Source: Protonemura montana
Taxonomy: Eukaryota; Arthropoda; Insecta; Plecoptera; Nemouridae
Assembly: GCA_947568835.1 (NCBI GenBank)
Contig: OX387604.1
Span: 9,765,860 to 9,829,859 of the forward strand
Direction: 5' to 3'
Length of the DNA: 64,000 bases
Part shown: positions 2,199 through 63,400 of the stretch, one piece after another
How the letters are laid out: each line of letters begins with the position of its first letter
Position numbering within the stretch: position 1 is the stretch's first letter
Program-made: the position numbers and the translations under genes
The notes under the pieces: model-generated
What the model saw: the letters and a program-made list of their open reading frames with translations, nothing else
The model's database searches: none
Told to the model about the DNA's origin: nothing

Positions 2199-2572
2199 AT
2201 TGATTTATTTGTTTGTTGTGTAACGACTCACCTGACCGTGTGGCGCTGGTCTAATGAAGTCAGTAGATGAGTGGGTGATGATGAACCTAACCTAGTCTAA
2301 GGATGGAGGGGAAATCCGGTGTTGGTACGTTACCTACTCCTGCCGAAGAGTACCAAGAGGATTATCGGCTTAATATATCTTCCGAAGCTCAGTATTATAA
2401 ATATAACTGCGGTAAAACTCAAACAACAAGATTCCTCTGCTAATACATGCTGCAAACGGAATCGGTTACGAGTACAATAGTTACCCATCCAATACCTGAC
2501 TTAGCGCAGTGTTGCTTAACTTCCGTGATCTCACGAGCACCGATGTTTCCAACACGCTAGACCGTTCAGTGC
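2199..2572 (-). mobile_element. 5S-derived SINE, old copy
   Basis: This diverged copy of the window's SINE family runs on the minus strand. The 5S-like head lies at about 2495-2570 and the tail with the TTAACGAC-like motif near 2220. The order of recognisable blocks (head, TGCTGT block, CCGGTGG-like core, CATCATCA/TAGGTTAGG block, tail) matches the better copies at 59225-59661 and 61544-61984. Many substitutions suggest it is older. No clear target-site duplication was seen. Confidence 0.75.
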
Positions 2573-10000: not shown

Positions 10001-11717
10001 TGTTTTTTTTTTTAGAAACAGAGTGCCAAAAGTACTGATTGAACCTGGGATTCATTAAAAGCAGTTTTTTTACATTAATTGGAATTTGCACACCAATCAA
10101 TTGGTTTTGGCTTCAGGGTACATCAATATGTTGCTAATTTATATTTCTGGTTGCATTGCAGTTGCCCAAAGCTTGCAGCAGATTATCTGGACACAGATTC
10201 AGAGTCTCCAGGGCGGCGGTGAAAACCTGCCCAATAAGAATAACTCTGCGCCGCCTCAAACCAGCAAGAATCTACCACCAAACAACAAACCATTATCACT
10301 CACTCCGAATCACCCACCCCCGAACATAACGCCACCCCCTAGTGGTCCTGACAAGGCACAGGCAGCCCTGGTGATCCTCCTTGCAGCACAAATGCAGGCC
10401 CAGATGGGTAACAACCACCCTTCACTGCTGGGCAATCCACAAATGCTGGCCACTCTTCAAAATCTCATCAAGCAAGCCCCGCCCCCGACCTCACGTCCCC
10501 CACCCAATGGGCAGAACCTGATGAACATTAACCATCAAATGGGACCACCACCTACAGGGGCATACCAATACGCTCACAATGGCATCGATGCCAGAAAGAT
10601 CCAAGCTCAGAATAATAATAATATGAAACAGGCTCAGTATATGGTGCAAGGACCTCCACAGAAAATCCCGTTGCTGCCCAACCCAAAGATGCCTGCAATG
10701 AGTCCACCTCCTGGAGAAATAACATCTTCACGACCTACCTACTCTGGGAACCCTGAAGAGAACGGAGTGCACCACCATGTGCAAGATCCTGCGTATTGGA
10801 ACGGAGTCCTTGGGCAGTTGCAGAACCATCAAACAATGAACATGCCGACACAACTGGATCCAGCATTCTTCGATCATAGCCTCGCAGGGCCTAAAAGCCC
10901 GCATGACAAGCCCAATGGCTCCATGTACCCCCAACCTCCTCCGCCCGTCGGCAAGATACCTCATCCTCACGACATGAAGCCCCCCAATGGCATGGGATAC
11001 TTCCAGGAAGGCATGCCAGGCGACTTGCAGCAAACGATCAACACGATCCTCAGCAAGGCGCAGAACTTGGGCGATCTGATCGGTTCGCTAACCTCAGCCA
11101 TACAGACGGGCAACAGTAACGCAGCCGCAGCTGCAGCAGGCATGCCCCAGAGACCCGTGCTACCCAACCAAAGCCCGTTCCAGTTTGTGCCACAAGGAGG
11201 GCCTCTGCTGCAGAACAGTGCGGTGGAGAATGCTTGGGTGGCGGCCGCGACCCGGGCACAAGCCGCTGCAACCACGATGACTGCCACTCAGCAGGGGCGG
11301 CCTCTTATGAGGAGTCCAGTTCCTAATGCCCGTGCCATGCTCGGGCCCCCTCCGGTGCACGGCGGACGGCCCCTTTTGGGGAGTCCCGTACCTGCGCACA
11401 AGCCTGTCGGCTTTGTAGAAATGAAGCCAAATCAATTCGGTTGGGGCCCAGGCCACTTCTTGGCCACGCCGGCTCCGCAGTACCCCGCATACCCGGGACC
11501 CAACCTTGTACCTGGCCTCTGGTCGCATCCAGGCAGTCCAGTCTTAGTCGCATCACCGCCCATCGGCCTTTGCACACCCATCGGACAGAAACGCAAGTAC
11601 AATCGCCTTTTACCTTCGCCAGAGCCAAGCCCCGAGGGCAACTACATCGGACAACATTCTCAAGGCCTGGGGGGTCACTACGCAGACTCGTATTTCAAGC
11701 GCAAAAAGAAGAACTAG
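7047..11717 (+). CDS. raver: RAVER-type ribonucleoprotein PTB-binding protein, 5' incomplete
   Basis: An RNA-binding adaptor. Vertebrate RAVER1/2 bind PTB and act as a splicing co-regulator shuttling between nucleus and cytoplasm. Coding exons: 7047-7338, 7807-8054, 8280-8462, 8776-8869 and 10162-11717; all phases match, giving 790 residues. The first exon starts inside RRM1 (EIRELLSDF). RRM2 follows with RNP2 MLCVARMP and RNP1 SKGYGFVEY, split by an intron. RRM3 starts at CLYVDKLP and contains WGLVEF. The last exon (about 517 codons) is low-complexity, rich in P, Q, N and G, and ends with the RAVER C-terminal signature ([11 protein letters not shown], then [14 protein letters not shown] and a basic tail). 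Open reading continues 5' of 10162, but that is intron. The N-terminal part of RRM1 and the start codon are not found in the 7 kb upstream. Family assignment is firm; which vertebrate paralogue it is closest to is not. Confidence 0.93.
7504..7527. repeat. Poly(C) run, 24 bases, in RAVER intron
   Basis: An uninterrupted run of 24 C on the transcribed strand, about 165 bp downstream of the 5' splice site at 7338. A pyrimidine run of this kind in the intron of a PTB-partner gene could attract poly(C)-binding proteins; that is inference. Confidence 0.95.
8870..10161 (+). other. RAVER last intron
   Basis: A non-coding intron of about 1.3 kb. It holds an 18-base C run (9831-9848), a T run near 9892-9905 and no recognised element. 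The 3' splice site at 10161 follows a TTGCATTGCAG sequence. Confidence 0.7.
9831..9848. repeat. Poly(C) run, 18 bases, in RAVER intron
   Basis: An uninterrupted run of 18 C, the second such run within the introns of the same gene. Confidence 0.95.
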
Positions 11718-18000: not shown

Positions 18001-21000
18001 GCATGCTTTACAAACACTTACAAACACATGAGGGTATTTATTAATTAGTGACCAGCAGATATGAACTACTTATCATTGGATCCATTTCTTTCTCAAGCCA
18101 CGTTGTCATTGAAATAAATGCTGCAGTTCACTCTAACTGATTAAATGTTGACTTGACATTTTCATTTTCGTTATCACTGAGTTTGTTTTTAGCTTCGTCA
18201 ATCCTCTGAAAGTGTAAAATCAGATAAGATGACATGTATTTTATAAAGTATGTTTGGTATTGGTAAACATGCCCCTATAATAGAGAAGACTTCGAGGGGT
18301 CGACGGCACTCACTGTAACAAATTAGCTAAGTAACCCCCACCTCAACTGGAAACTACAAAATCATGTTCTGTCCACTGTTCATTTGATGTTTTCTGTCCA
18401 CTTTTAACTATTAAAATAGTTTCAATTGGGATTTAGGACAAACTATTCGTTCTTTTCAACCCAAATTGAGTGAATTGTAAGGTACTTGGTAAAGATTGTT
18501 ACATTATTATTTTAGTACCGTAATCAGTCTTTCCAATCAACCGTACTTTATTTTTATATAGTTATCAATGGCTGAGAACCATTTCTTTTAAAGCTACAAG
18601 TGTCTGTGTGCTACGTTATGAGTGTAACAAAATTACTACATGTCTGTTTCTAATTAATATTTATCAGGAGTTTATTTACATCTGTTATTTGCTTCTGATC
18701 TTAAAAGGTTCACAATTTAATTTCAAGTCTGTTACAGCAAGGGCAGTTTTTTGTATCACTAATCAAGAAAATAAACACTATGGTCTAAGGTCTTCATTAT
18801 TTTGCAAAACGGGTTGTTTGATGTTTGATCTCATAACGATTGATTAAATTTCCTCTATAAGCTAAAATGTGTAAGCGGCGTGTTTCAGTTACGCTAGCTC
18901 CCAGATACGCTCTGCCTGTTCTGAAATTTCTTACCCTATTTTGTCACACTCAATCTTGCTCGAATACTTTCAAAGACTCCAGAGAAGGCTTTTAGTTTTT
19001 TTTATAGACGTTTTTATAACCACCGCCTGGTTTATAGCCTGTCAACTGTCATATTTAATTTATTTTTTAAACATCACCGAGTGTTTTGAGCCCCTTTTTA
19101 GAATGAAGTTTGACTCATAGCCTCATAACCGATAAACATTTCCATGCCAGCGTTTGGTGGTTCTCATTGTGGTGTTCGATCTGGGGTTACCCAAATTTAC
19201 TTCCGTTGCCAAACACTACCGAAATTATCGAACAATTCTGACAACTTTCACTTATTTGAAAAGCCCTAGCCCCCAGAAGTTTTTTGAACCTTTTTTTCAT
19301 TCTAATTAGTCATCCCTGTGCTTAGAGACACAATTCTAAGTTCTAACGCAAGATCTGAAACATTGGAAAACAGGAATAATAGAGTGATATTGAAAAGAGA
19401 ACCGCATAACCTAAACTAGGCTACAAAGGAGGAGGGAAACCTAATGCCGGTACATCAATAGACTTTCTGTTCTGGTCCATTCCGAAGGACATCGGGTGGA
19501 AGGACGGCAGAGCTCAAACAGCAGGACCAAGCTGTCGAGAGCTTGGCGCCAAGGGAGTAAAGCAATGCTTCGTACACTCGTGGGCACTTAATACGACCTT
19601 TAGCATCATCGTATTTCGTTCGTCAAAATGACCTGGTATGGGTGACGACATAGAATAGAAGACAAAAAAAAAACGCATTTCTTAAAACGACTCATTGCAC
19701 ATTAGTCATGAGCGCACGCAAGATTTTCAAGCTGTTTAAGCAATTGGCTGAAAACAAAGCGCATCTTTGTTCAAAATATTGAAGTTTGTTTTTAAAGTCG
19801 CTCCTTTCTATCCCTGGAATAAACGCTGTATCATCAAAGTGAAAAAATAAACATTTTCTTGTGTAGCCAACGTACTGTAGATATGTTAAGTCTTATAAAG
19901 TGTTTTCTGTTTTATCAACTTCTTTCAGTTACAAGCTTACAGATTGTACCTAGCTGAAAACTGAAACTCACCTGTTGACCGTAATCGCCACCATGCTAAG
20001 AAGTGACACTGCTACATTCCCGTAAAAGATAAACGGGAAAATTTTGCAAAGAGTCGGTCCGAGGACCCAGGCTTCGTTAATGTATCGGGAAGCTGTCAGG
20101 GGCAGATTGATTCCAGAGAAGAGCAAATCCGAGACGCACAAACTGATGACAAAAGCAGTGGTCGCATGCTTTCGTAGCTTGTTACATCTTAACAATGCAA
20201 CTGCTGTAAGTAAATTTCCTGTAAAAAAAAGAAAAATATCGAATTTCATTGGAAAGCTTCATTTATATTACTGGTATAATCATTATTTTTCTAGTGCCAA
20301 AGTTTTCCATTCATGTTAGTGTCAAAAGGAAATTTCAGTGAAATGTAAATAAATTTTAAATTTGTCCAACTGTTTGTACTGTATTAACTAACAAGTCACC
20401 GGCTTTCAACGCAAACTAACTGTCATATGGGACTGGGATAGCCGAATACACCTTCTTATTTCTCAGTTCTACAATATTAATGAAGGCCCTGACAGCTATT
20501 TAAGCCATGACCAAGCATGTACCATTCAATTCAGCAACATGACCTAGGCACTCTCAATGCTACACTGAAGATGGCGTCAAGCGCTCTGTTACTTCAAAAA
20601 AGGGGTTCGCCTTTTACTCGATGTGAAACACGTTTGGGGCATCATACGCTTCACTGATTTTTCCAACAGCAATGCACCTACTATGCTGCATAGAAGACCT
20701 AAATCTCATTGTAATATGATGCTTTAGGGGCAAGTCTGTTTGGATTCCTAATATTTACCCTTGAAATTGCACGTGAAATTTCTGTATGGGTTCTAGATTG
20801 ATCAAATTTTATAAGCACAGTTCATATTTGAAGATATATTTCGGTTTTCGTTTTAGGGAAACTCTCAAGGTACTATTTATAAATCTTGTTTTAGGCGCAT
20901 ACATTTATTCTGTAACATTCCGCAGTACAAACAAAGATACAAAGAAATCTTATCAAGTTACTGTAATGTACTTATATTCCGGACAACGACAGTTGTGACA

Positions 21001-23159
21001 ATAACACCCCTTCACTTTTTCCTAAACATATATAAAAGATGTGAACTCTGTATTAGAGCAGTTGTACATAGAAACGGCAATAAACATAACTTGAAACCAT
21101 CTGTTCATTACATAAAATTGGTGTCAGAAGTAGGATACGAAAAATTCAACAACACCTTCAAGTTCTAAATCGAAAAAAATCCAAGTCTTCAAGTTAAGTC
21201 ACGAAAAATCCAAGTCTTCGACTTCTAAAAGCCTTGGTCACGTGATATCAGAGAAAGGCGGAGAAGTTGACGAAAACAAAGTTAAAGCGGTAAAAGAGAT
21301 TCCAGCACCTACTAATCAAAAGAAGCTAACATCTTTGTTGGGACTTGGAGGTTAGTACCTACGTTTCTTAAAAAACATACTCGAAATTATGCTTCCGCTA
21401 AGAAGTGTATTAAAAAAGTATGTAACTTTTAAATGGACTAGCTTGCAGCAGAAAAGCTTCGAACTTCTAAAAGATGTGCTTTGTTCCGCCACTATTCTAC
21501 AATGTCCAGATCCAACCAAAACCTACATCCTCACATGCGATGAAAGTGATTACGCAATTGGTTCCGTATTATCACTAGGAAAGATATCAAATAATTTACC
21601 CATTTCACATGCAAGTAGAACCGTAAACAAACACGAGCGCAACTATCCAACTTTTGAAAAGGAACTCCTCTCGATCGTCTGGGCAATAAAACGTTAAAGA
21701 CCATATCTCTCTGGGCAAAAATTCAAAATTGTGACTGATGCAAAGTCATTGCTATAGCTTTTTAACGTAAAAGATCCAGGATCGCGACTCTTACGATGGA
21801 GAATAAAAATTGAAGAATATGACTACAAAATAATTTACAAAAAAGGAAGTTTAAACACACGTAGATGCACTCGGTAGAATAAAAATCAATCTAGACCCAA
21901 CAAGAATTAACAAAATAGAGGCAAAAATTACACATAATACTTATGAGCTTGACCAACTCCATACCACAATTATAATCAACAAAAATTTGAGTGAAAGTAA
22001 TGGATCACTGTTCACTTCCAAAAAGAACTTAGCTCATTTCGCCGATATTGAAATGTCCACAGGAATTGCACTCGAATTTCAAAATAAATACAAGCACGAA
22101 AACGAACTACAAGCAATGAATCTTAAAGTGCTTGATATAGGCATAATCAAAGAACACGACAAATTCATATATTATCTCATTATTAAAATCAATCACTGGG
22201 ACAAACCTAGTCATAACGACCTCTTTAGAGCAATAATTAAACTTAGGAATCACCTCGTTGAGAATAATCAAACAGAAATTAGCATACCAAAATTAGGCTG
22301 TGCATTGGACAGGCTTAATTGGGACAAGGTACGATCAATGATTTGATACATTTTCAAAGATACCTCAGTACGGGTACATGTGTTTACTTATGAAATAAGC
22401 ACACCAAAACTAGATGAGATACCAAACATTCTAAAAGAAAATCATACCAATCCTACGGCAGGATACTCAAGATTTCACCGACGACCGTACAAAAGAATTA
22501 AACATTTTGTACATGGCACAACATGAAAAAGGACATTCATACATTTATTAAACACTGTGAGTCATGTCAAAAGAATAAACTGATAAGACGAAAGAACATA
22601 AAACCTATGGAAATAACGACAGCTAAAAGGGCTTTTGAAAAAATTGCTTTAGACATCGTTGGACCACCGTTAGGGAAGGTGTCCTCTTCGACGCTCCCTT
22701 ACAATGAGCTCAAAAAACATTTACAACTATATCAGTTCCTTCCAATCCACCAAAATCAAAGCAATACTGTATTATATTTCTGCGTTCGTCTGTAATACTA
22801 TGGTTAGTTTCCTGTATAGCTATTAACTTTTTTGTGTGAAAATACTTCATTCGATTTGTTAATTTACTTAAATTACGATGCTCTCAAATCATAATTTTAA
22901 AAGGGAAACATTTTGCCTGCGATTTATTTTTACATACCACAATATATTCCCCTAGCCATACTTTGTGCATTTAAAACAGCATGTATTTACCAGCAACTCC
23001 GACAACGCTGAAAACCACTGCGCATACAGCCCCAAAGACAGTCGCTGCTCGGGGGTAGTAAATCTCCACCACCTCTGCGCTTGTGTAATTCGCCATCTCT
23101 AGGGGAGCTCCCAGATTCCCTCCTTCGATTGCGTCTGCAAAGGCTGCAAGCTGGCTCAC
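15027..23159 (-). CDS. Tre1: Class A GPCR, Tre1/moody type
   Basis: A seven-transmembrane receptor. Drosophila Tre1 guides germ-cell migration and moody acts in the glial blood-brain barrier; the ligand here is unknown. Coding exons on the minus strand: 23159-22991, 20218-19972, 16512-16207, 16130-15974 and 15332-15027, with matching phases, giving 394 residues. Seen: extracellular NYT glycosylation site, TM1 ending GVAGNLLT, TM2 LCVSDLLFSGINLPL, NRY instead of DRY at the end of TM3, TM4-5 segments with FSCTILKKNGTSPKK between them, TM6 LTIFCGFLLCFLPLML, TM7 VVNPFIYAGSNRQY, and a cysteine pair after it for possible palmitoylation. Length equals Drosophila Tre1 (about 390 aa). The start at 23159 is the first in-frame ATG; one at 23096 (MANYTS) is an alternative. 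An acceptor-like site at 23232 suggests an upstream non-coding exon. The family is firm; Tre1 rather than moody is judged from the TM4-5 region. Confidence 0.9.
15402..15539 (-). repeat. Fold-back repeat family, copy 1
   Basis: Its reverse complement matches 62595-62741: both share TAGACTC.TGTCTACTTTATC, the GCACTAGTTTTG block, AAAAACTATTTGAACTGGG and TTTTGAATGCT.AGTGAA. This copy, in the last GPCR intron, carries an extra stretch of about 34 bp (around 15461-15494) that repeats the ACTATTTGAA block. It has no coding capacity. Confidence 0.7.
16872..17577. mobile_element. hAT-like non-autonomous transposon with TTCCGATTCC arrays
   Basis: A 706-bp element in GPCR intron 2. The ends are inverted repeats: TAGGGACCGGAAT from 16872, and ATTCCGGTCCCGA ending at 17577. 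They are bounded by an 8-bp direct repeat, GAACATTT (16864-16871) and GAAAATTT (17578-17585), with one mismatch. Short ends with an 8-bp duplication are typical of the hAT superfamily. Both ends are filled with degenerate tandem TTCCGA/TTCCGATTCC units spaced by A-rich sequence; the middle (about 17030-17400) is unrelated. Reading the arrays on the minus strand gives meaningless G/I/E-rich frames. No transposase was seen. Confidence 0.65.
17586..19404. other. GPCR intron 2, non-coding
   Basis: AT-rich intron sequence between the hAT-like element and the SINE fragment. No coding exon, RNA gene or repeat was recognised. Confidence 0.6.
19405..19552 (-). mobile_element. 5S-derived SINE fragment
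   Basis: A heavily mutated central fragment of the SINE family, minus orientation. It retains the CTAGGCTA / GGAGGAGGGAAACC.. / TGCCGGTAC / TTCCGAAGGAC / AACAGCAGGA / GCTGTCGAGAG block order. The 5S head and the tail are missing or unrecognisable. Confidence 0.65.
20994..21112 (+). repeat. LTR of Ty3/gypsy element
   Basis: A 119-bp segment starting TGTGACAATAAC and ending TTCATTACA (TG...CA). It has a TATATAAAAG promoter motif at 21029-21038 and an AATAAA-like signal near 21080, and is followed by a primer-binding site. It is interpreted as the 5' LTR of the decayed retrotransposon downstream. No matching 3' LTR was found by eye after 22795. Confidence 0.55.
21119..21135 (+). promoter_or_regulatory. 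Retrotransposon primer-binding site (tRNA-Leu type)
   Basis: TGGTGTCAGAAGTAGGA sits 6 bases after the LTR end. It is complementary to the usual 3' end of tRNA-Leu (TGG then TGTCAGAAGTGGGA) with one difference. Confidence 0.6.
21230..22795 (+). pseudogene. Decayed Ty3/gypsy pol with an inserted macrodomain
   Basis: Remnant of an LTR retrotransposon pol gene inside GPCR intron 1, antisense to the GPCR. Order seen: end of reverse transcriptase thumb (about 21235-21350), RNase H (21389-21697, with TCDESDYAIGSVLS, NYPTFEKELLSIVW), RNase H tail and DALGRI tether (about 21700-21880), macrodomain (about 21975-22394), integrase zinc finger (22523-22600, CESCQKNK) and the first integrase catalytic Asp in ALDIVGP (about 22650). 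After that the sequence breaks off. Gag, protease and most of RT are deleted. There are in-frame stops (for example near 21755 and at 22344) and at least one frameshift (near 21860), so the element is dead. The macrodomain between RNase H and integrase is unusual; see the separate entry. Confidence 0.8.
21975..22394 (+). pseudogene. TARG1/OARD1-type macrodomain within gypsy pol
   Basis: Open from 21987 to 22343, then a TGA, after which the same frame continues with a matching last beta strand (VRVHVFTYE, to about 22394). Seen motifs: N-terminal SLFTSKKNLAHFADIEMSTGI (loop binding ADP-ribose), central YYLIIK, then ISIPKLGCALDRLNW. These correspond to the OARD1/TARG1 and yeast Poa1p macrodomain subfamily, enzymes that remove ADP-ribose from proteins or hydrolyse ADP-ribose 1''-phosphate. 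The Lys (in YYLIIK) and Asp (in GCALDRL) that form the TARG1 catalytic pair are both present. It lies between the DALGRI tether and the integrase zinc finger, as expected of a domain of the Pol polyprotein. That it was active in the ancestral element is inference. Confidence 0.8.
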
Positions 23160-23231
23160 AACGTTTCAACACTATACTTCCCGCTGTCGCCGGTCGAAGG
23201 TGTTTGGACGATGGACATAACCCACCCGGAG
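22991..23231 (-). other. GPCR first coding exon with 5' UTR part
   Basis: The minus-strand exon appears to start after an acceptor (T-rich tract then TTTCAG) at about 23232, so 23231-23160 would be 5' UTR and the leader is spliced. The donor at 22990 is GTAAAT. The promoter is not located. Confidence 0.45.
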
Positions 23232-26200
23232 CTGAAATAAATAAAAAAAAAGACGGTGCATTTTTAATTAACGTTTAGAAGATTAAAAGCTCGAAGGGCA
23301 GAGGAGGTGTGGTGTGGGGAAGGGCTATTAACTGTTTTAATTAACCTATACTACTAGTATGACAGTCATGGCTGATACCAGAGTCCATAGCTAAGAAAGT
23401 CGGTCTGACTTTTGTTCTAATATAAGGAGAAGTATGGAAATAATTGTGTACATTATAGTGATAATAATGTTTTCTGACCATTAGGTTGATACTGTCGGGT
23501 ATAATGATTTTGTGACCTGTCACGGTTCAAACTAGTTGACGGTTATCTTTCCGTTGCATCAAATCAACCAACATTCATTTCAAGTGAAAATAAAGGACAG
23601 CATTGACGAGGTTCAGGACTGGACGACATGGTAAGAAACCGTAACACTAAAAAGAAAATCACTGTTCATATTACAAAAAAAAATTACAAAAAATTTAAGG
23701 GCCTGTCCAAACAACACGTGCTAGCTAAACATACATTTTTTGACGGCCTCTGTTTTTTACAACTTTTTTATGCGTCTCGTAAAAGCCAAGATTGCGTTTA
23801 TGATGGATTTTCAAGTTAATGCATACCGTCAAATCACTTCCTTTTTTGTTTTCCTTTTGTACCGGTATAACTTATAATTTCTAAATCATGTGTATGATTT
23901 CCAATACCAATATCCCGGATAGTGATCAGATCGTGTCTCAAAGATATAAAAAGAATATAAAAGTGATGAAATCGGATATGGAAGCACCGATTTATCATAA
24001 ATGATCTGTGGTCAAGTGAAGGGTCAGCATCAGCATGAGTTGTAACTTGTTACTCAACAGAACGTAGAGCCTATGGATTTTGTTTAATTACAGCCTTGGT
24101 GGTCAAGGGCACGTTGGCTTTAAAGCCGTACGAAGGGCTTACCTATTGCTAATTTACTTTCTGCCCAACACAGGTATCGGTCCTACTGCAACTAAATTAA
24201 AAGTGTTCATTTCGATGGACTTTGCTAACATCACACATCAAAGTACGGGTCATATGAAAATGATTAGGGCCATATTAATTGGGGAACTGACTGCTAGTCA
24301 GAACAGTTTTTTTTAAGCCATTTTCTTCACTTTCCCCTAACTTGAGGCAAAAAATAAGATGGTTATTTTGATTAACAAGGATCCACAGAATAATCAATCA
24401 ATGTTGCACTTAACTAAAACATAAAAACACAACACTAACCGCAGGCAGTTTTTGATTATTAAACATCGCGGCACATTTAAAAATGAATCATCTAAATTCA
24501 TTACTCTTGAACTTACTCGTATTTTATTTTGCTTTTTATAACACTCGGTGTAGTCTGTAAACTCTCTCTGATTCAGATTTGAATACGAAATAAATCACTT
24601 ATACATTCTATTCAACGTTCCACCAATAACACCACCAGTCCCGACAGGGGCCCGTAAGAGACTGAACGTCTATCTCAAGGAGTCATGCATCGGCATCTGC
24701 TATTGGCCCTTGAAGTAGAAAATGAAGTAGCTGTTACACATTCGATGGGGAAATCGAAGTCGAAAAATTGGCTGGTCGGAAGGGACGGAATGGGTTGGTT
24801 GACGCTCCAGTCTAACCCCTGTAAACGCAATAGGGGAATTAATAAAAAGGACCCCTCAGAAAGGTGAGTTCACCTTTCAATTGCCACCACTGTTACGGGG
24901 GGGCAAGGACCTCGTTTAATTCTACGAGATACCTAAAAGAGATGAGAAAAACATTCTGTAACCCCGGCCCGACTTTCGGGCCAGGCTCGGGTTCCGATGT
25001 TCAGCATTTGGGCTCTTTTGGACTTGCGCGCTATTGTTTTTGTTTCAGGCATTTGAACTAATTTCAGAAACACCACACTCCGTCGTGATATTGAAAGTTC
25101 CCACGGCTAAGACTCGACCTTGTTTGATTCAAACTTGATCAGTCGATTCCATTCAAATTTAAAAGAATTATTTTAATCTTACATTGAATCACGCTCGTCG
25201 CTTGTTTCCAAACACGAAAATTAACGCGAAAATGCAATCAATTAAAAACGCACGTCTGCAATCACGTACTTCGTTTTTGTGTACCTACCACGGGATAACG
25301 TACTCGGCAGAAAATAGAAGAATTTCGCTATCTATGCGGCTAACAAGGTTATATTTGTGGAACTTTTGCGGCTGCATTAATAGCAAAATGTTGATAGAAT
25401 TTAGATCTGAATGCTTCCGACGCGAAGAATATGAATTGGCCAAGTCAAAGGCAAGTTTTTTAATGTTAAAAAAGTTCTCAGCGTGAACTAGGGAGGACAT
25501 TTCCTGCCTTAGAAACGATTTATTTTCTTAGGAACATTTCATTATCGCTTTTTACAAATTATATTTAAAATACCGCAAGACATTTTTCGAAACTCAAATT
25601 ACAATTCGGCTTTCGAGGCTTTGGACTTTATTAAGTCAGCCAAACTTTCTGTGAACAATTCTGAGCAGAGCTAGAACAAATGAATTTCCAGCATTTCAGG
25701 GTCGGGCACCTGGACCAACAAAAAATAAGTATCTCATCTTTGATACCTAACACGAGGATAGTACCTCCACCTAAAGCCCTGTTCTTACTCGCTGTTATTT
25801 TCATCATAAGATAAGTTGTTAGATGATTTAAATAAGTTCGCCCTGAGTAAAGCCACGGAAACTGCAAAAAGTTGCGAAAATTACAATCAAGGACTTTGCG
25901 AATGAAATTTTAATAGCTTCAGTTGCATGGCAAGTAAGCTATGCACTAGTAGTACAAAAGTAAAGGCATGTCGATGTTGATAAAGAACACAACAGGCTGA
26001 GAACAACAAATGATTTAGCAATCTGAAGAAATTGTATAAAAATTGAATTTATGAAATCTACATTCTAAAATATAAATTAATAGAATTTCACCACTTAAAA
26101 ATAGACTGAAAATAGATGCAAAAAAGACAATTTGCCAGTTTCCCAAATTTGCCAAGTTTGGTATAAAAACTTCCTGATATATTTGTAAAAACTCTGAATA

Positions 26201-50646: not shown

Positions 50647-53600
50647 ATGGGAAAGGGCACGGGTCGTGTGCAAATGATTTGCAAGTATAGGGAGTGCACC
50701 AATACTCATTTGAAGGACCCGGCATTGTCTTTTTTTTATTGCACTAATAAAGACCAAGCACAACGCGATGCCTGGTTGACCCGTTCCGGCAACGAGGATT
50801 TGGTGGGTTCAACTGCGGAACATTTGAAAGCGAAGGGGTTTCGTTTGTGTGCTATACATTTCGAGAATAGCGAGTTCGTTAATATAAGAAAAAATCGGTT
50901 GGTCAAGAATGCGCTTCCTAAGCTGTATGCTGCTGAAAATGATCATGATGTCATTGACATTGCCAAAGACACCGACACTGTGGCAGGTGAGGGAATCTGA
51001 GGTCCTGGCATACACTTTATGTTCCAGTAAATAGCCATTACTAGTGGGTACTACACTCTCCTAGCCTGTAGCTAATATGGACTGAAATTCGATTGCAGAA
51101 TCGTCACAAGATGATAGTCCAGTTGCCATGTCTGAGGCAGAGTTTGTTGGTGATGGCATGGATGCTGCTGGGCCATCTTCACCATCAGTCTCCTCTCACC
51201 AGACTACACCATTTGGTAAGTTTAAAATCAATCTATGCACATCCTCCTTTCACTATAACTTTAAATTCAGTACATTCAAATGCCAATAACCTGGGAGTTC
51301 TTATTGTATTTGTTCATTTATAATTTTTAGTCATTCACAAAAGAAGAGGCTCTATTCTCGGAGAGTTGGGGTACAGTCTAGGTGAGCGCACACCGAGAAA
51401 GAAAACCCTGCTGTGCAAATACAAGAAAGCTGTGAAGAGGGTGCACCAGTTACTCAAACAGACTTTGCTACAAAAAGATAAAATTAAAGCTGTGGAGAAA
51501 TTGAAATCTGCGCCAGCACTGGAGAGGCTTATCTCCGACACAGAAACCTTTTCCCCTGCCATGTCGTCCTTCATCTTGGGAGATCTTCGGAACCGCAACC
51601 GGCCAATAAAGTCTCGCAGGTGTGTAAGCAACGGGTGGAAATAATCTTATAATTATCTGTTCGAGCTTGTTTTAACAACAAATTTTGACCTATAGGTGGA
51701 ATTTGCAAGACAAAATCTGGGCACTGGCCATTATGAAGCGAAGCCCTCGGTGCTACGAATATATGCGCAAAATAATTACTCTGCCGAGCCCGAAAACATT
51801 GCGCATTTTATTGGACAACTTGTCGTTTAAAACGGGCCTAAACCAAAAAATTCTCGCTCATCTTGCTACACGGGCGAGTAAGATGAGTGAGAGGGACCGA
51901 TGCTGTGTTGTCCTCTTCGACGAGATGTCCTTGCGCTCGGGCATCTACTATAACGAGAGCGAGGACAACGTATCAGGTAAGGAAGACTACATCAAGTTGT
52001 CTGATTTTGATTAAATGGTATTAATACAATAAATCAATATTTGACTAAAATTCATTTTCAGGGTTTGAAGACTACGGCCACCTTGGCACAACACGAGTCA
52101 TCGCCAATCATGCCCTTGTTATAATGGTTCGAGGACTTGCCAAAAGGTGGAAGCAACCGATTGCTTATTATTACACATGTGACACCGTTCCTAGTGACAT
52201 TTTGGCAAAGTTGTTGCGGCATGCCATCAGTGCGTTGCTAGGCATTGGCTTAAATGTTGTGGTCACAGTGTGTGATCAGGGCCCCACCAACCGCGGAGCA
52301 ATCCGGGAGCTATCGGATGCCACACCTGATGGCTCGAGTGAGACATTTTTCGAGGTTGATGGCAAGAAGATTTTTGTACTCTTTGATCCTCCTCATCTCT
52401 TAAAATGTATGAGGAACATTCTTCAGAAAAACAATGTTACCTGGTGGGATGAGGTCCAATCGTGCTTTAAAACTGCCAAGTGGGAGCACCTGGAAAGGTT
52501 TTACGAGCTTGATCAGCTGACAGCAAGAATGGCTATCAAGCTGACGGCAAACCATCTGAAACCAGAAGGGTCATTCAAGATGCGCGTCAGTTTGGCAGCC
52601 CAGGTCCTGAGCCACACGGTTGCTGCAGGGATGCTGACCATGGCCACTTGGGGGGATGGCAGCGTTTTTCCAAAGGAGGCCATGCACACTGCTGAGTTTG
52701 TGGAGCTCTTGGACAAGTTTTTTGACAGTGTCAACGGCTCCACACTGCACCCTGATCGGGGAAAGGAGCTGCGTTGTGTTCTGTCCAACCAATCTCCGCA
52801 TCTGCAGTTCTGGGTTGAGATGCGAGCTAAAGTCCTAGGCTGGCGATTCACCAACTCTCACACTGGACGGGTAAGCTTTATGATCTACCAGTCTGTTAGG
52901 TACCACATTTTGCTGTTACAGGTAAATAAATCTATGTAGGTTATTACATTGACATATAATTAACCTTTTTGCAGAAGCTAAGCCCACCAACAGTCTCGGG
53001 TATTCTTGTCACCATTGTTTCTTTAGTGAAGTTGTGGGACTACCTGAGGACTGAAAAAGGCTTTCGCTACCTTTCCTTGAGGAATCTTGACCAGGATGCT
53101 CTGGAAAACTTGTTTGGGACCATACGCCAACATGGCATTTGTAATGTGAACCCAACGACAGTGCAGTTTGCTGCTGCCCTGAAGACAGCAACCATTACCA
53201 ACCTGAGCAGCTACAGGTCCAGAGGAACGAACTGTGAGCGTGACAACGACCAGCTGCTCAGCGACCTGCGGGCTCTCCTCGAGAAAAAGGATGCCTCTGT
53301 TACACCTTCAAAGGTAATTTTAATGTTTATGCACCAAACAAATATGTATGGTTGCTGATATTATCTTTATGAGCATGGTAACTCATTACTCATTTCTTGT
53401 AGGTGCTGCGACCATCAGACAGGGCCACCACAAATCCTCGTCTGCTTGCGGTACCAGTTGCCTCGCGAGAAGAGGACCAGCTCACGGACCTGCGGAGACT
53501 GCCAACCGCTTACGTATGCGGCTACATTGCCAAGCGCCTTTGCTTAGTCATATCATGCACCGAATGCAAGTCGCTGATCTTGACGCACGAGCTGACTGAA

Positions 53601-57600: not shown

Positions 57601-60437
57601 AATTTGATCCCAGTATATTTCTGAGTCAAAATATTTACTGTAGCATAGTGAACGGCTTGGAAACAGCCTGTTACGGAAATAGTTTGTTGGATCTGTGGAA
57701 CTACAATATAAACTCATCTTCCGAAGGACTCACCAAAGTTGATATTCTTGAAGTACTGAATCGTACTACTGTCAGGTAATGTCAACGTAAAATATCTCGC
57801 TTTACTAATATAGGTCAGGGATTGAATGCGTGACCATCATACACATGCACTGTTCTTCTGTTCGGGAGAGAGGTTGGAGGGATGGGTGGCCATCATGCAC
57901 ATGACCAGTACTGTTCGGGAGAGAGGTTGGAGGGATGGAAGTTGCTAAAACTTCATTCACCTAACCTCTGGACACTATGGATTTGTGGAGGAATCCTGTT
58001 GATCGCGCGTTGTACCGTACTTCAGAAGGAACGTTAAGCTGGTGGTCTCCTCGGTGCTCTTCGACAGGAGTAGGCCGGTACCGGTTTTCCTCTCCTCCCT
58101 TCTATGCTAAGTTAGGTTCTTCAGAATTTTCATCCACTCATTCACCGACGCCATTGGACCTGTGCCAAATGGCCGTTGTCAAAACAGTGCATTGTTAAAC
58201 CCTACTAATCAATCGAATATGGAAGAGAAAACTGCATGCCGTATATTGCGAGCTCAATGTCTAGCAAATTACTGTAAATATTAGTCGTGAATCTACGGTG
58301 TATATTCTGCAGTTCGCAATTATATCTAATTACTTAAGCTTTACAACTTAAAAACAAACACACGATAGTCTCTCAGCATCAATTTTAGTGCAAATATTGG
58401 GAAAGATCCCACCCCTAAACTCCTATTGTTATTCGTAACCATCTAATTCTGAACTTCTATTACCGCCATTGCATTATTGCTGGGTAGGCACGCTAGTTTG
58501 ATTTCTTGTGGATTTTGATAGTTTTGAAATGGCGTGCATAATCTTTCGAAAGTGAGCACTATTTTGCTGGCACGCAGGCACTCTTACTTTCTGCGAACTC
58601 TCGACGAGATCTTGGACTTCAGCGTGGTTTATCTTGATTCCTTACTGCGACCTTGACAAATATTGTATTCCGATTATGCAACGTTTCATTGCAATTGTAA
58701 CACATGTGTTACAATTGCACGGCATAATCTGATCTGATGTTTTGGCCGATGACCGTTGAGGTCCTTGCGACCATTGAGGGATTCAGTAAGGTTTAAATTG
58801 TGGATGTTTGATTTGTAATTACTGGTTAACTCGTCTCACACATTTCTTCAGGGACATAAAAATAACTATTCAGAGACCTGGAGGTGTCAAGGCTAATCCA
58901 GCCTCGCGGACATAACGCTACTACGACTTTATATTCAGATACGGCTAATTAAAAGTGCTAGGAGAACCCTAACTTCAAGTCTCCCTTTTTGGCCGAATTC
59001 TAGCTGCGGGACAAGGCCCTTGCTAAAAGGATCACATGGAACGGACAAAAAACTAGACAACCTTTCTTTGATCGTTAGCCATGTTCACAGGTAACGCGCT
59101 ACCTTCAATTATGACGCCTTGTCTAAAGACACTCGTGATTGCTAAAAATTCACGTTTCGAAACCTCGCTAGTAAATACATTTATTTTGCATTTGGTATAG
59201 ATAATAAAGAAAAGAGAAACTAGATTGATTGAATTATTTATTTGTGGTGTTTAACGACGCACTATATTGACATCTGGCCATGCGGCACTGGTCTAATGGC
59301 GTCGGTGAATGAGTGGATGATGATGAACCTAACCTAGCCTAGAAGGGAGGAGGGGAGACCTGGTGCCGGCACGTAGCTTACTCCTGTCGAAGAGCACCAA
59401 GAGGACCACCGGCTTAACGTCCCTTCCGAAGGACGGTACAACTCAAACAGCAGGATTCCTCCACAAATCCATGCTGTCGAGAGGTTGATAAGCAAGGCGA
59501 ATGAAGTTGCTGTACCAAAATTCATCCCTCTTACCTCTCTCCCGTTTAGAACAGGTCATGTGTATGATGGTCACCCATCCAATACCTGACTTAGCGCAGT
59601 GTTGCTTATCTTCGGTGATCTAACGAGAACCGGTGTTTCCAACATGCCACACCGTTCGGTCAGAGAAACTAGAGAAACGAAGACTTACATTTTTCTTGTT
59701 TTGCTTCGCTCTTTAATAGTGAACAAATTTCGTTGAAATGTATTCATGTATTCATTTTTAACATCAAAAGCTAATTTTTTACTAACAAAAAAAATCTGCT
59801 CAGTAGATATTTTTTACTTACGAAACATTAAAACTTGATTGGTGCCAATTTACTAAATATCATGATACCAAATCTTGAATGTTGATCTTATTTATGTAGA
59901 GCAAAATGCCTGATACCATTAGGCGTTAATTCAGTTCATTTTTAAGATTTTTATTCATCGAGAGTTTGACTTCTGAAACATTGTACCGCCCGAACACAGT
60001 TTACTGTCCAATATTTAGTTAACTCGATGGAGAAGGTTTTGAGATCGATTCTTAGAAATTCAGAATACGTAGGTATGTACTATAAAAGTTTTATTGCATT
60101 ATTTTTGGTTTTTAACGACCCTGTATTTACGGTCTCTGAGGCAATGTTCTGATGACGTCGGTGAATTCGTGTGCGCTGGTGAGGATTATGATGATGAACA
60201 AACCCTAGGAGGGAGGAGGAGAAACCCGGTGTCTTCACGTCGCTAATCCTGTTAAAGTGTTTTTCTACTATTATGCTACTTCCAATAAAAAACGGGAATA
60301 CTCTACTAATCCGTGCAGTCGAGAGGTTGAATTTACTAACGTATTTTTGGTCATGGTTGTAATGGTCTTGTCAACATCCTACATCAGTTTTTGATTTACT
60401 TAGTGATCGCTACAGTTGCACAGAAACTATCGGTCGT

Positions 60438-60469
<32 letters not shown>

Positions 60470-63400
60470 GAAAGGAAAGCGAAAGGAGCAAAAGATATCT
60501 TTTGTACCTTAGTATATTTCTTAGTAGGTATGTATTAAGATAAATTGTAACAAAAAGTGCATGATTATTGGAATTATTATTTAGTGATTATTGGGGTTCA
60601 ACGAGGCACTGTTTTGACAACTGGCCCTGCAGCACTGGCCTGCGGCGTCGGTGAATGAGAGGTTGATTATGAGGATGATGATGAACCTTACCTAGCCTAG
60701 ATGGGAGAAAGGGAAACCCGGTGCCGGCACGTAGCCTACTCTTGTCGAAGAGCACCAAGGGGACCACCGGCTTATCGTCCCTTCCGAATGGCGGTTTAGC
60801 GCGAACAACAGGATTCCTCCACAAATCCATACTGTCGAGAGATTGATAAGCAAGGCAAGTAAAGTTGCTGAGTTGTAAAAGTAAAGTAAAGTAAAGTTAA
60901 ACTTTCATCCCTCCAGCCTCTCCCGAACAGAACCGGTCATGTGAGTGATGGTCACCCATCCAAGACCTGATCCATCGCTGTGTTGCTTAACCTCGGTGAT
61001 CTCACGTGAACCAGTGTGTCCAACGTTTTAAGCCATTGGATCTCGCGAATTAGCTGGGCAAAGTCATTGCAAAGAGAAACTATTAAAAATTATAGTAGCG
61101 TATAGTCGTATAGTCGTATAGGCGAATAGTCTTCTTATTTTAAATTACGTCTACTAACCTTCACTTCCACTTTACACCGCGCTTAGCTGCCGAAAAGTCA
61201 GTCCTAATGTACGACGCGTTTAGCCCTCAAATCTTGAGTTTTACGTTTCCAGTAGCTCCAATGCCTTTTCTGCATGTGTTGGGTTTTTTTCATGCTTCTT
61301 TTGTGTTGTTGTGAATGTCGCTGGGATTTGCCAACTCCGATCAGCAGTACTTTTAATATGACGAGTGATGTCACAGTCAAGATTTCTGTGGTATTTAATA
61401 ACATGTAAATACACTGTGAGCAAAGCCCGATTTACACCTTTGTTGCAATTTCCCCCCTCCACCCCCCACAGCCCCGCCCAAATGATCAAAATTATTCCTT
61501 TTATTTGATTTTTATTTGTATTTCGAGGCGATGGACAAGTACAAGCGAACGACTTTGCATGTTGGAAACACCGCTTCTCGTGAGATCACCTAAGTTAAGC
61601 AACACTGTGCTGAGTCAGGTATTGGATGGGTTACCATCATACACATGACCAGCTCTGTTCGGGAGAGAGGTTGGAGGGATGAAAGTTAGTACAGCAACTT
61701 CATTCGCCTTACTTATCAATCTCTCGACAGCATGGATTTGTGGGGAAATCCTGCTGTTTGCGTTGTACCTTCCTTCGAAAAGGACGTTAAGCCGGTGGTC
61801 CCCTTGGTGCTCTTCAACAGGAGTAGGCTATGTGCCGGCACCAAAATTCCCCTCCTCTCTTCTAGGCTAGGTTAGGTTCCTCATCATCCTCATCAACATC
61901 TGCTCATTCACCGACGCCATAAGACCATTGCCGCAGGGCCAGTTGTCAAAACAGTGCGTCGTTAAACCCCAATAATCATCATCAGACAAGAACATTGTAT
62001 TCGTTTGCGCTTTTAGATAATAATAAATTATTAATAATAATAATAGTAACAAAAGTAGTAATATTAATAGTATGATAACTTGGTATCGTGGTATCCTAAG
62101 GTGTCCATGGCATCCTAAGAGAGGAGGTACATTTTGTAAAGCTGACAGCATCGTTAAAATGTAAAACCGTTGGTAAAACGTTTGAAAGATTTATGTTCGC
62201 AACTTGAGCCATACTTTCAATGTTATGTCAACATGTTTAGCGCTTTCTCAGCACCGCTGCTACTTACAAGATTCGCAAAGGTTTAGTCATTACTTAGAAA
62301 TGAGGAGACGGTGCTGTAAAAATTTTAACGTTGAATCTTGTTGTAAAAAAACACATCAATTTAAATGAAATTTTGGAACAAATCAACAGAGCTAATGGGA
62401 TTTTAAAAATTGTACAAAGTAGGCTAGACCTGATCGTAGCGTTCCTGTAAATTCACAGTCGGAGCTTCGGGAAGAATATGGGTGTAGATTTACAGTCGAG
62501 GCATGCAGAAAGAATGTGGGTATAAACTTATGTTTCTCCTTTTTTACTACAATTTTTTTTAGTTTTTTGCATCTAAGATGTGTCCATTATAATGGGTTTT
62601 AGACTCGTGTCTACTTTATCTAACCTTAGCACTAGTTTTGACAAAAACTATTTGAACTGGGTTTTGAATGCTAAGTGAATAACAACTAAATATAGTTGTT
62701 AATATCTTAGAATTCAAAACCTAGTTCAAATAGTATTTGTTAAGTTGTGTCCATCTTTGCGCCTCGTTGAATTAACCCTAGGATGCAGACCTGAACGTAA
62801 AGAAGGTACTGACTGGAAGCAATGACTATAGTAATAGCATGCTGCTCTTTGTTTCAGTCCAAGTCTTGGCCACCCAATGGACTTTGTGCACCTGTTAGGT
62901 GATGTGAGTACCGATGCAAGTGGGAAAATCATCTCTGCCGGCTCCGTGCTCTCTCTGTACATGGTAGCAGTCAATTTCTCTGCAGTCAACATGGATGAGA
63001 CTGGGAACGATGCGGGAACGGCAGACTGGGTAGGCTAGGTTTGATACACTTGCATGTATACAAGTTCTCTAAATAAAGGTTTAAACAGCTTTTGGAGCAA
63101 ACTACTCCGGTTAACTCAAAAAAACACAAGTCTAGGCAAAACTAGCAACCTGTATAAAATAGGAGAGTCTAAAATCTCAGGTGGAGTGAAGATTTTTTAT
63201 TTTGTAATTATATATGTACAGTGCAGGCAAAAGGCAGAGTGAGCATATCGATTCTTTTATGCTTGCTTATACCATTAAGTGTATAGGTTTAGTCAGAGTC
63301 CCAGTGCTAGTGTTAAGCTTTCAGCAGAGAAAACGAGCTTCCTACACAAGGTCCTAGTAATGACAACCCAAAGGCATTTGAGACTGTCCTTTTTAACAAA

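Follow-up and report, generated by a model that had tools for sequence, protein, structure and literature searches.

TARG1-type macrodomains are ADP-ribosylhydrolases in which a lysine attacks the ADP-ribose and an aspartate, D125 in human TARG1 and the catalytic partner of K84, resolves the adduct; TARG1 also acts on ADP-ribose linked to glutamate or aspartate and on ADP-ribose linked to end phosphates. The catalytic role of K84 is documented in PMC8501950, and viral macrodomains are known to counter host ADP-ribosylation (PMC5156301). Among retroelements, an excerpt of a review (PMC4977317, citing Basta et al. 2009) reports that some teleost epsilon-like endogenous retroviruses carry extra open reading frames (ORFs) that encode CNPase or macro-domain proteins. 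The capture of macro domains by retroelements therefore has some precedent; the strong point of the present case is their recurrence in one genome. Here we describe a window, the whole stretch of 64,000 nucleotides of Protonemura montana DNA that was analysed (C16:9765860-9829859, in a genome of 258 Mb and 34 contigs), which holds a fossil copy of a Ty3/gypsy retrotransposon with a TARG1/OARD1-type macrodomain inside its pol, between RNase H and integrase, as the first-pass annotation of this DNA had claimed. The teleost elements, as that excerpt presents them (PMC4977317), have the captured domain as an additional ORF, whereas here it lies inside Ty3/gypsy pol and inside ORF1 of long interspersed nuclear elements (LINEs).

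Other described systems share parts of this pattern. Bdelloid rotifer long terminal repeat (LTR) retrotransposons and Penelope-like elements share GDSL and DEDDy ORFs (excerpt of PMC5408684), so that there, too, an enzyme type is common to unrelated retroelement classes in one genome; these are separate ORF3s, however, and the word 'macro' occurs 0 times in the PMC5408684 text. ORF1 types of CR1/L2 LINEs have the PHD and esterase modules also found here (parts of PMC4120745; Kapitonov and Jurka 2003, cited in PMC5408684), whereas 'Macro' and 'SAP' occur 0 times in the PMC4120745 text, the available part of which places esterase ORF1s only in the vertebrate L2 and CR1 groups. Fusions of TRADD-N genes with retrotransposons likewise join conflict-related domains to mobile elements in animals, but the domain is another one, and the available portion of PMC8195603 mentions macro domains in bacterial proteins only. 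We recognised no report in the open-licence literature of a TARG1-type macrodomain in Ty3/gypsy pol or LINE ORF1; the annotation, which knew of no such arrangement described for gypsy elements, is borne out to that extent, with the teleost retroviruses (PMC4977317) as a precedent for retroelement capture in general.

Our reading, to which we give a probability of roughly 0.55, is that in the window element a TARG1-type macrodomain replaced the usual RNase H-integrase linker, that this was one of several captures by gypsy and LINE elements in this genome, and that the domain probably acted as an ADP-ribosylhydrolase, with a benefit at the ribonucleoprotein (RNP), cDNA or chromatin stage. The observations behind it are the kinship of the domain, the continuity of its frame with pol, the retention of its catalytic Lys and Asp, and the occurrence of this type of domain both in LINE ORF1s and in a gypsy pol with an open frame. 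When the ORF at 21855-22346 (163 codons) was compared with PDB by phmmer, its residues 49-163 matched human OARD1/TARG1 with an E-value of 8.8e-19, which rules out a chance match to a macrodomain, and all five sequences at E<=1 were OARD1/C6orf130. The catalytic-pair Lys (AAA, 22185-22187) and Asp (GAC, 22308-22310), whose presence the annotation had correctly noted, align with human K84 and D125; this human numbering was counted from the alignment with an offset of 6. The differences from human TARG1 are the location inside a retrotransposon pol, changes in the loops and one stop. A macrodomain query from a second gypsy element, on contig C4, aligned over its residues 8-138 of 141 to 22005-22385 (31% identity, one TGA), so that the domain extends to its last strand, as had been proposed. 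The frame that opens at 21855 runs from the gypsy tether through a linker of about 40 residues and the macrodomain into the start of integrase, ending at 22523, and its 223 codons contain one stop where about 15 are expected at the local base composition (hand estimate). This stop, the TGA at 22344-22346, breaks the macrodomain, so the copy is damaged, as the annotation had said; the same frame is open thereafter.

General profiles recognised the domain less well. The profile search proposed in the annotation gave a Pfam Macro match that is weak (E 0.12, 12.7 bits against a cut-off of 22), in contrast to the strong OARD1 match. The only NCBIfam match at E<=1 was the bacterial DarG antitoxin macrodomain (E 1.4e-9), which, in the available part of PMC8501950, has the same type of catalytic Lys; the window copy reached 37.7 of the 250 bits needed. 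No DarT-type gene was seen among the 14 window ORFs in a Pfam scan, the only search that bears on it.

The second gypsy lineage carries the same type of domain in a different place, before reverse transcriptase (RT). The element at C4:408493-415649 (minus strand; loci L033, L076 and L021) has a TARG1-type macrodomain (Pfam Macro E 8.2e-7) between protease and RT. Its two LTRs, 338 bp each, are identical to the letter, so the insertion is young. By eye, a primer-site-like stretch, which we take to resemble a tRNA-Pro primer site, directly follows one LTR, with a G-rich polypurine tract ahead of the other; no clear target-site duplication was seen by eye. A gag ORF (Retrotrans_gag E 1.1e-5) is present, and an uninterrupted 1672-codon pol frame encodes RVP (2.7e-6), a 36-base tandem repeat, the macrodomain, RVT_1 (2.8e-34), RNase H (1.4e-35), H2C2 (1.9e-19) and rve (4.8e-11). 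A second copy, on C16, is broken, macrodomain included, and a 601-base piece from the end of the pol region had just these two matches in the genome (C4 and C16). The L062 family passes from protease to RT through a short spacer without a macrodomain (by eye and by search of L062), and offers an empty site against which the repeat and macrodomain of the C4 element can be compared.

Macrodomains of this type also recur in LINEs. The C4 macrodomain query had 51 matches in the genome at E<=0.001, pieces counted apart, and 12 of 29 macrodomain loci tested had a match to LINE RT or endonuclease or to gypsy RT downstream in sense within 1.5 kb (L003, L005-L008, L013, L014, L018, L019, L021, L023 and L027), a count in which the near-copies L003/L005, L006-L008 and L014/L018 enter separately. 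LINE ORF1s with a TARG1-type macrodomain were noted in L003-L008, L014, L023 and L027. Their architectures vary: PHD-Macro-GDSL esterase in L005 (Macro E 4.4e-8); SAP-Macro-GDSL esterase in L004 (Macro 16.7 bits, below the cut-off of 22, with RVT_1 further downstream); and Macro plus repeats in L014 (17.2 bits against the same cut-off, E 0.00025, RVT_1 downstream), a type in which the domain precedes long tandem repeats. In Pfam searches neither PHD nor GDSL was found in L006 at 1e-3, nor GDSL in L013 at 0.01; L027 had BTB without Macro, and the L030 macrodomain fell just below the Macro cut-off (E 0.00048). A broken macrodomain ORF of the SAP-esterase type forms arrays at C15:14051-57127 (four copies) and C23:26953-41784 (two), with a spacing of about 11-20 kb (L009-L012, L015 and L016) and more than 99.7% identity in the longest aligned pieces. 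At C5:17507102-17577399 at least five macrodomain matches lie in about 70 kb, most of them split over two frames. A match on C12, split over 9999492-9999611 and 9997030-9997236, 2.3 kb apart, looks like a spliced cellular TARG1 gene.

How often gypsy elements acquired the domain can be approached through RNase H. In a tree of 11 rows, in which the window row is long, the window element grouped with the L044 family (86/89), whose cut loci yielded no macrodomain, and the C4/C16 element grouped with L062 (96/97); a single clade for the two macrodomain gypsies was rejected (approximately unbiased test, p-AU 0.018). Two separate acquisitions by gypsy lineages are likely, though not proven, because this clade is rejected and because the domain sits at different places in pol. 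A point on the other side is that the window integrase piece matches C16 (E 1.3e-5) and C4 (2.1e-5) first, the next match being at 3.7e-4. The macrodomain tree proposed in the annotation (33 rows, the window row a long branch) placed the two gypsy domains apart, yet did not reject one clade (p 0.19), and is silent on the number of captures. Constraint on the domain is visible across families. Seven columns do not vary across the 13 macrodomains aligned, and these include the Lys, a K-P pair and the Asp; the 13 were selected from 30 loci for their fuller sequences, and two are partial. In five of ten pairs, all of them comparisons between families, the nonsynonymous distance (dN) is 0.22-0.66 and the synonymous distance (dS) is not computable and taken as saturated; the dN/dS ratio (w) of L023/L030 is 0.30. 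The macrodomain has thus been conserved between families over the long term, a statement that does not extend to the short term.

The annotation had expected a family that could be found, and this was not borne out: when the 258-Mb genome was searched at the DNA level with the window pol stretch, simple and very common words being skipped, the stretch itself was the sole match. The one LTR relative is a fragment on C5 with 73% identity to 20961-21144 (LTR and primer site). In the surrounding 9.9 kb (L075), pieces of the macrodomain and of gypsy RT, RNase H and integrase had no counterpart, and the single match was a short one to a LINE. Of the 34 other macrodomain matches listed at E<=0.01, a number in which fragments of a gene enter separately, the nearest is 44% identical to the window copy. 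Given these three results, no donor of the window macrodomain is seen among the matches listed, and the lineage seems extinct in this genome. The suggested search for full-length LTR elements was productive in another way, yielding the C4 gypsy and the LINE families and none of the window's lineage. By eye, the RNase H-integrase linker is ordinary in seven gypsy loci of three families. When five macrodomain queries were run on 42 further loci (L031-L072), the only ones with a match were the two that represent the window. Each locus extended 1.5 kb to either side of its original match, and absence applies to that span; L032 and L033, which belong to the macrodomain-bearing elements of C16 and C4, were negative because of this cut. 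IMG/VR gave no relatives of the window element by a single-protein scan or with the window integrase and RNase H pieces, and none of the 80 (of 127) confirmed macrodomain loci tested there matched gypsy RT, RNase H, integrase or LINE RT at 1e-3, which means only that the window family is not visible there at that sensitivity.

An ADP-ribosylhydrolase encoded by the element could act on the element's own nucleic acid or proteins at about the time of reverse transcription or integration, and would strip ADP-ribose that host transferases had put on the ends of element cDNA or RNA, on integrase or RT, or on chromatin at the integration nick. The domain may have been used against host ADP-ribosylation. 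Gypsy elements and LINEs have reverse transcription and a target-site break in common but not capsid or envelope steps, so that a shared benefit would most likely arise at the level of RNP, cDNA or chromatin; a nuclear role at the target site is favoured by the PHD and SAP company in LINE ORF1s and by the domain's closeness to integrase in the window copy. To our knowledge, a role of ADP-ribosylation in animal transposon control has been little tested. ZAP (PARP13) is itself without catalysis. Since ZAP is reported to restrict LINE-1 (PMC4423928, PMC4441479), control of retroelements by the PARP family is plausible. Tentatively, and with less confidence than in our main reading, a wider picture may be drawn for this animal lineage, in which two retroelement classes were repeatedly armed with a TARG1-type ADP-ribosylhydrolase, at varied sites in gypsy pol and LINE ORF1, to undo the ADP-ribose that the host places on element nucleic acids or integration complexes; such modification would then be an animal anti-transposon defence and these domains its genomic footprint. 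Because TARG1-type domains occur in elements of both classes, and one of these elements is young and complete-looking, the question becomes testable, and attention falls on a step common to gypsy elements and LINEs.

Several results weigh against our reading. Fifteen of the 29 macrodomain loci have no RT or endonuclease within 1.5 kb (L004, whose RT lies further on, is included), and in L017 and L026 such matches are in the wrong place or sense. The window copy has GS for the GD of the human G-D-L-F loop, lacks two residues after AHF and has A in place of G before L-D, changes in which decay of a dead copy and an earlier loss of function cannot be told apart. The single pol copy allows no dN/dS for the window lineage. 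The near-identical L003/L005 have a w of 1.02 on five differences, hence no purifying signal, and the three pairs of L014, L017 and L018 differ by one to three changes, all nonsynonymous. Such close copies are what would be seen if retroelements had acquired ORF pieces by template switching and carried TARG1-type domains unused, and the shared bdelloid ORF3s, in the excerpt of PMC5408684, likewise show no significant departure from neutrality. The catalytic residues are nonetheless kept across deeply split families, and the likely two gypsy acquisitions add to several LINE ORF1 architectures, which makes an unused cargo improbable.

PHD is a histone reader and SAP a DNA-binding domain. Their presence beside the macrodomain in LINE ORF1s, together with its position next to integrase in the window element, would suit a domain that recognises ADP-ribose at chromatin breaks and, with no hydrolysis, guides integrase or the LINE RNP to targets. 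Binding alone should not need both the Lys and the Asp that are invariant in all 13 aligned domains, and we regard this as a doubtful account, though one to keep in view. That the window pol stretch matches only itself, and that LINE ORF1s with such domains recur in the genome, would also be expected if a host TARG1 cDNA or a piece of LINE ORF1 had landed in an already broken gypsy copy, the first of which the annotation had raised as an alternative. This is disfavoured: tether, macrodomain and integrase start share one frame with far fewer stops than expected, no genome sequence listed exceeds 44% identity to the domain, and remains of PHD, SAP or esterase are not seen by eye at its edges. 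We consider such a chimera very unlikely.

The window element keeps the RNase H-then-integrase order of Ty3/gypsy pol (Table 1). Gag, protease and most of RT were not seen in it, with an internal deletion and one partial LTR; a second LTR was not found among direct repeats of 18500-25500, and ARAGORN detected no tRNA genes in the window.

Table 1. Features of the fossil gypsy element, in window coordinates
Feature	Position	Strand	Basis
5' LTR, 3' part	20961..21112	+	TATA-like and AATAAA-like motifs by eye; LTR end at TTACA by eye
Primer-binding-site-like stretch just after LTR end	21119..21136	+	By eye
C-terminal remnant of RT/connection	21230..21355	+	By eye in ORF 21134-21355; no convincing Pfam match
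RNase H	21356..21697	+	Pfam RT_RNaseH_2 E 2e-26, RT_RNaseH 1.4e-16
RNase H end, tether (DALGRIK) and linker; one stop and a frame change	21698..21998	+	By eye; frame open from 21855
TARG1/OARD1-type macrodomain with in-frame TGA	21999..22385	+	phmmer against PDB, C4 macrodomain match, alignment
Integrase zinc-finger start, in the macrodomain's frame	22386..22523	+	Frame map; motif identity by eye
Integrase H2C2 zinc finger, second half, different frame	22502..22795	+	Pfam Integrase_H2C2 E 6.2e-7

Elsewhere in the window, a 552-codon open frame at 10059-11717 lies in a GC-richer stretch and has no Pfam match at 1e-3. Matches to 5S rRNA at 2454-2566 (-), 59545-59660 (-) and 61544-61664 (+), with 40.6, 52.8 and 38.4 bits against a gathering score of 38, are perhaps 5S-derived short interspersed elements or pseudogenes. 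A transposase fragment at 52049-52939, presumably P-element-like, matches the TNP-like RNase H N-terminal domain (E 1.9e-21) and the GTP-binding insertion (E 7.1e-18).

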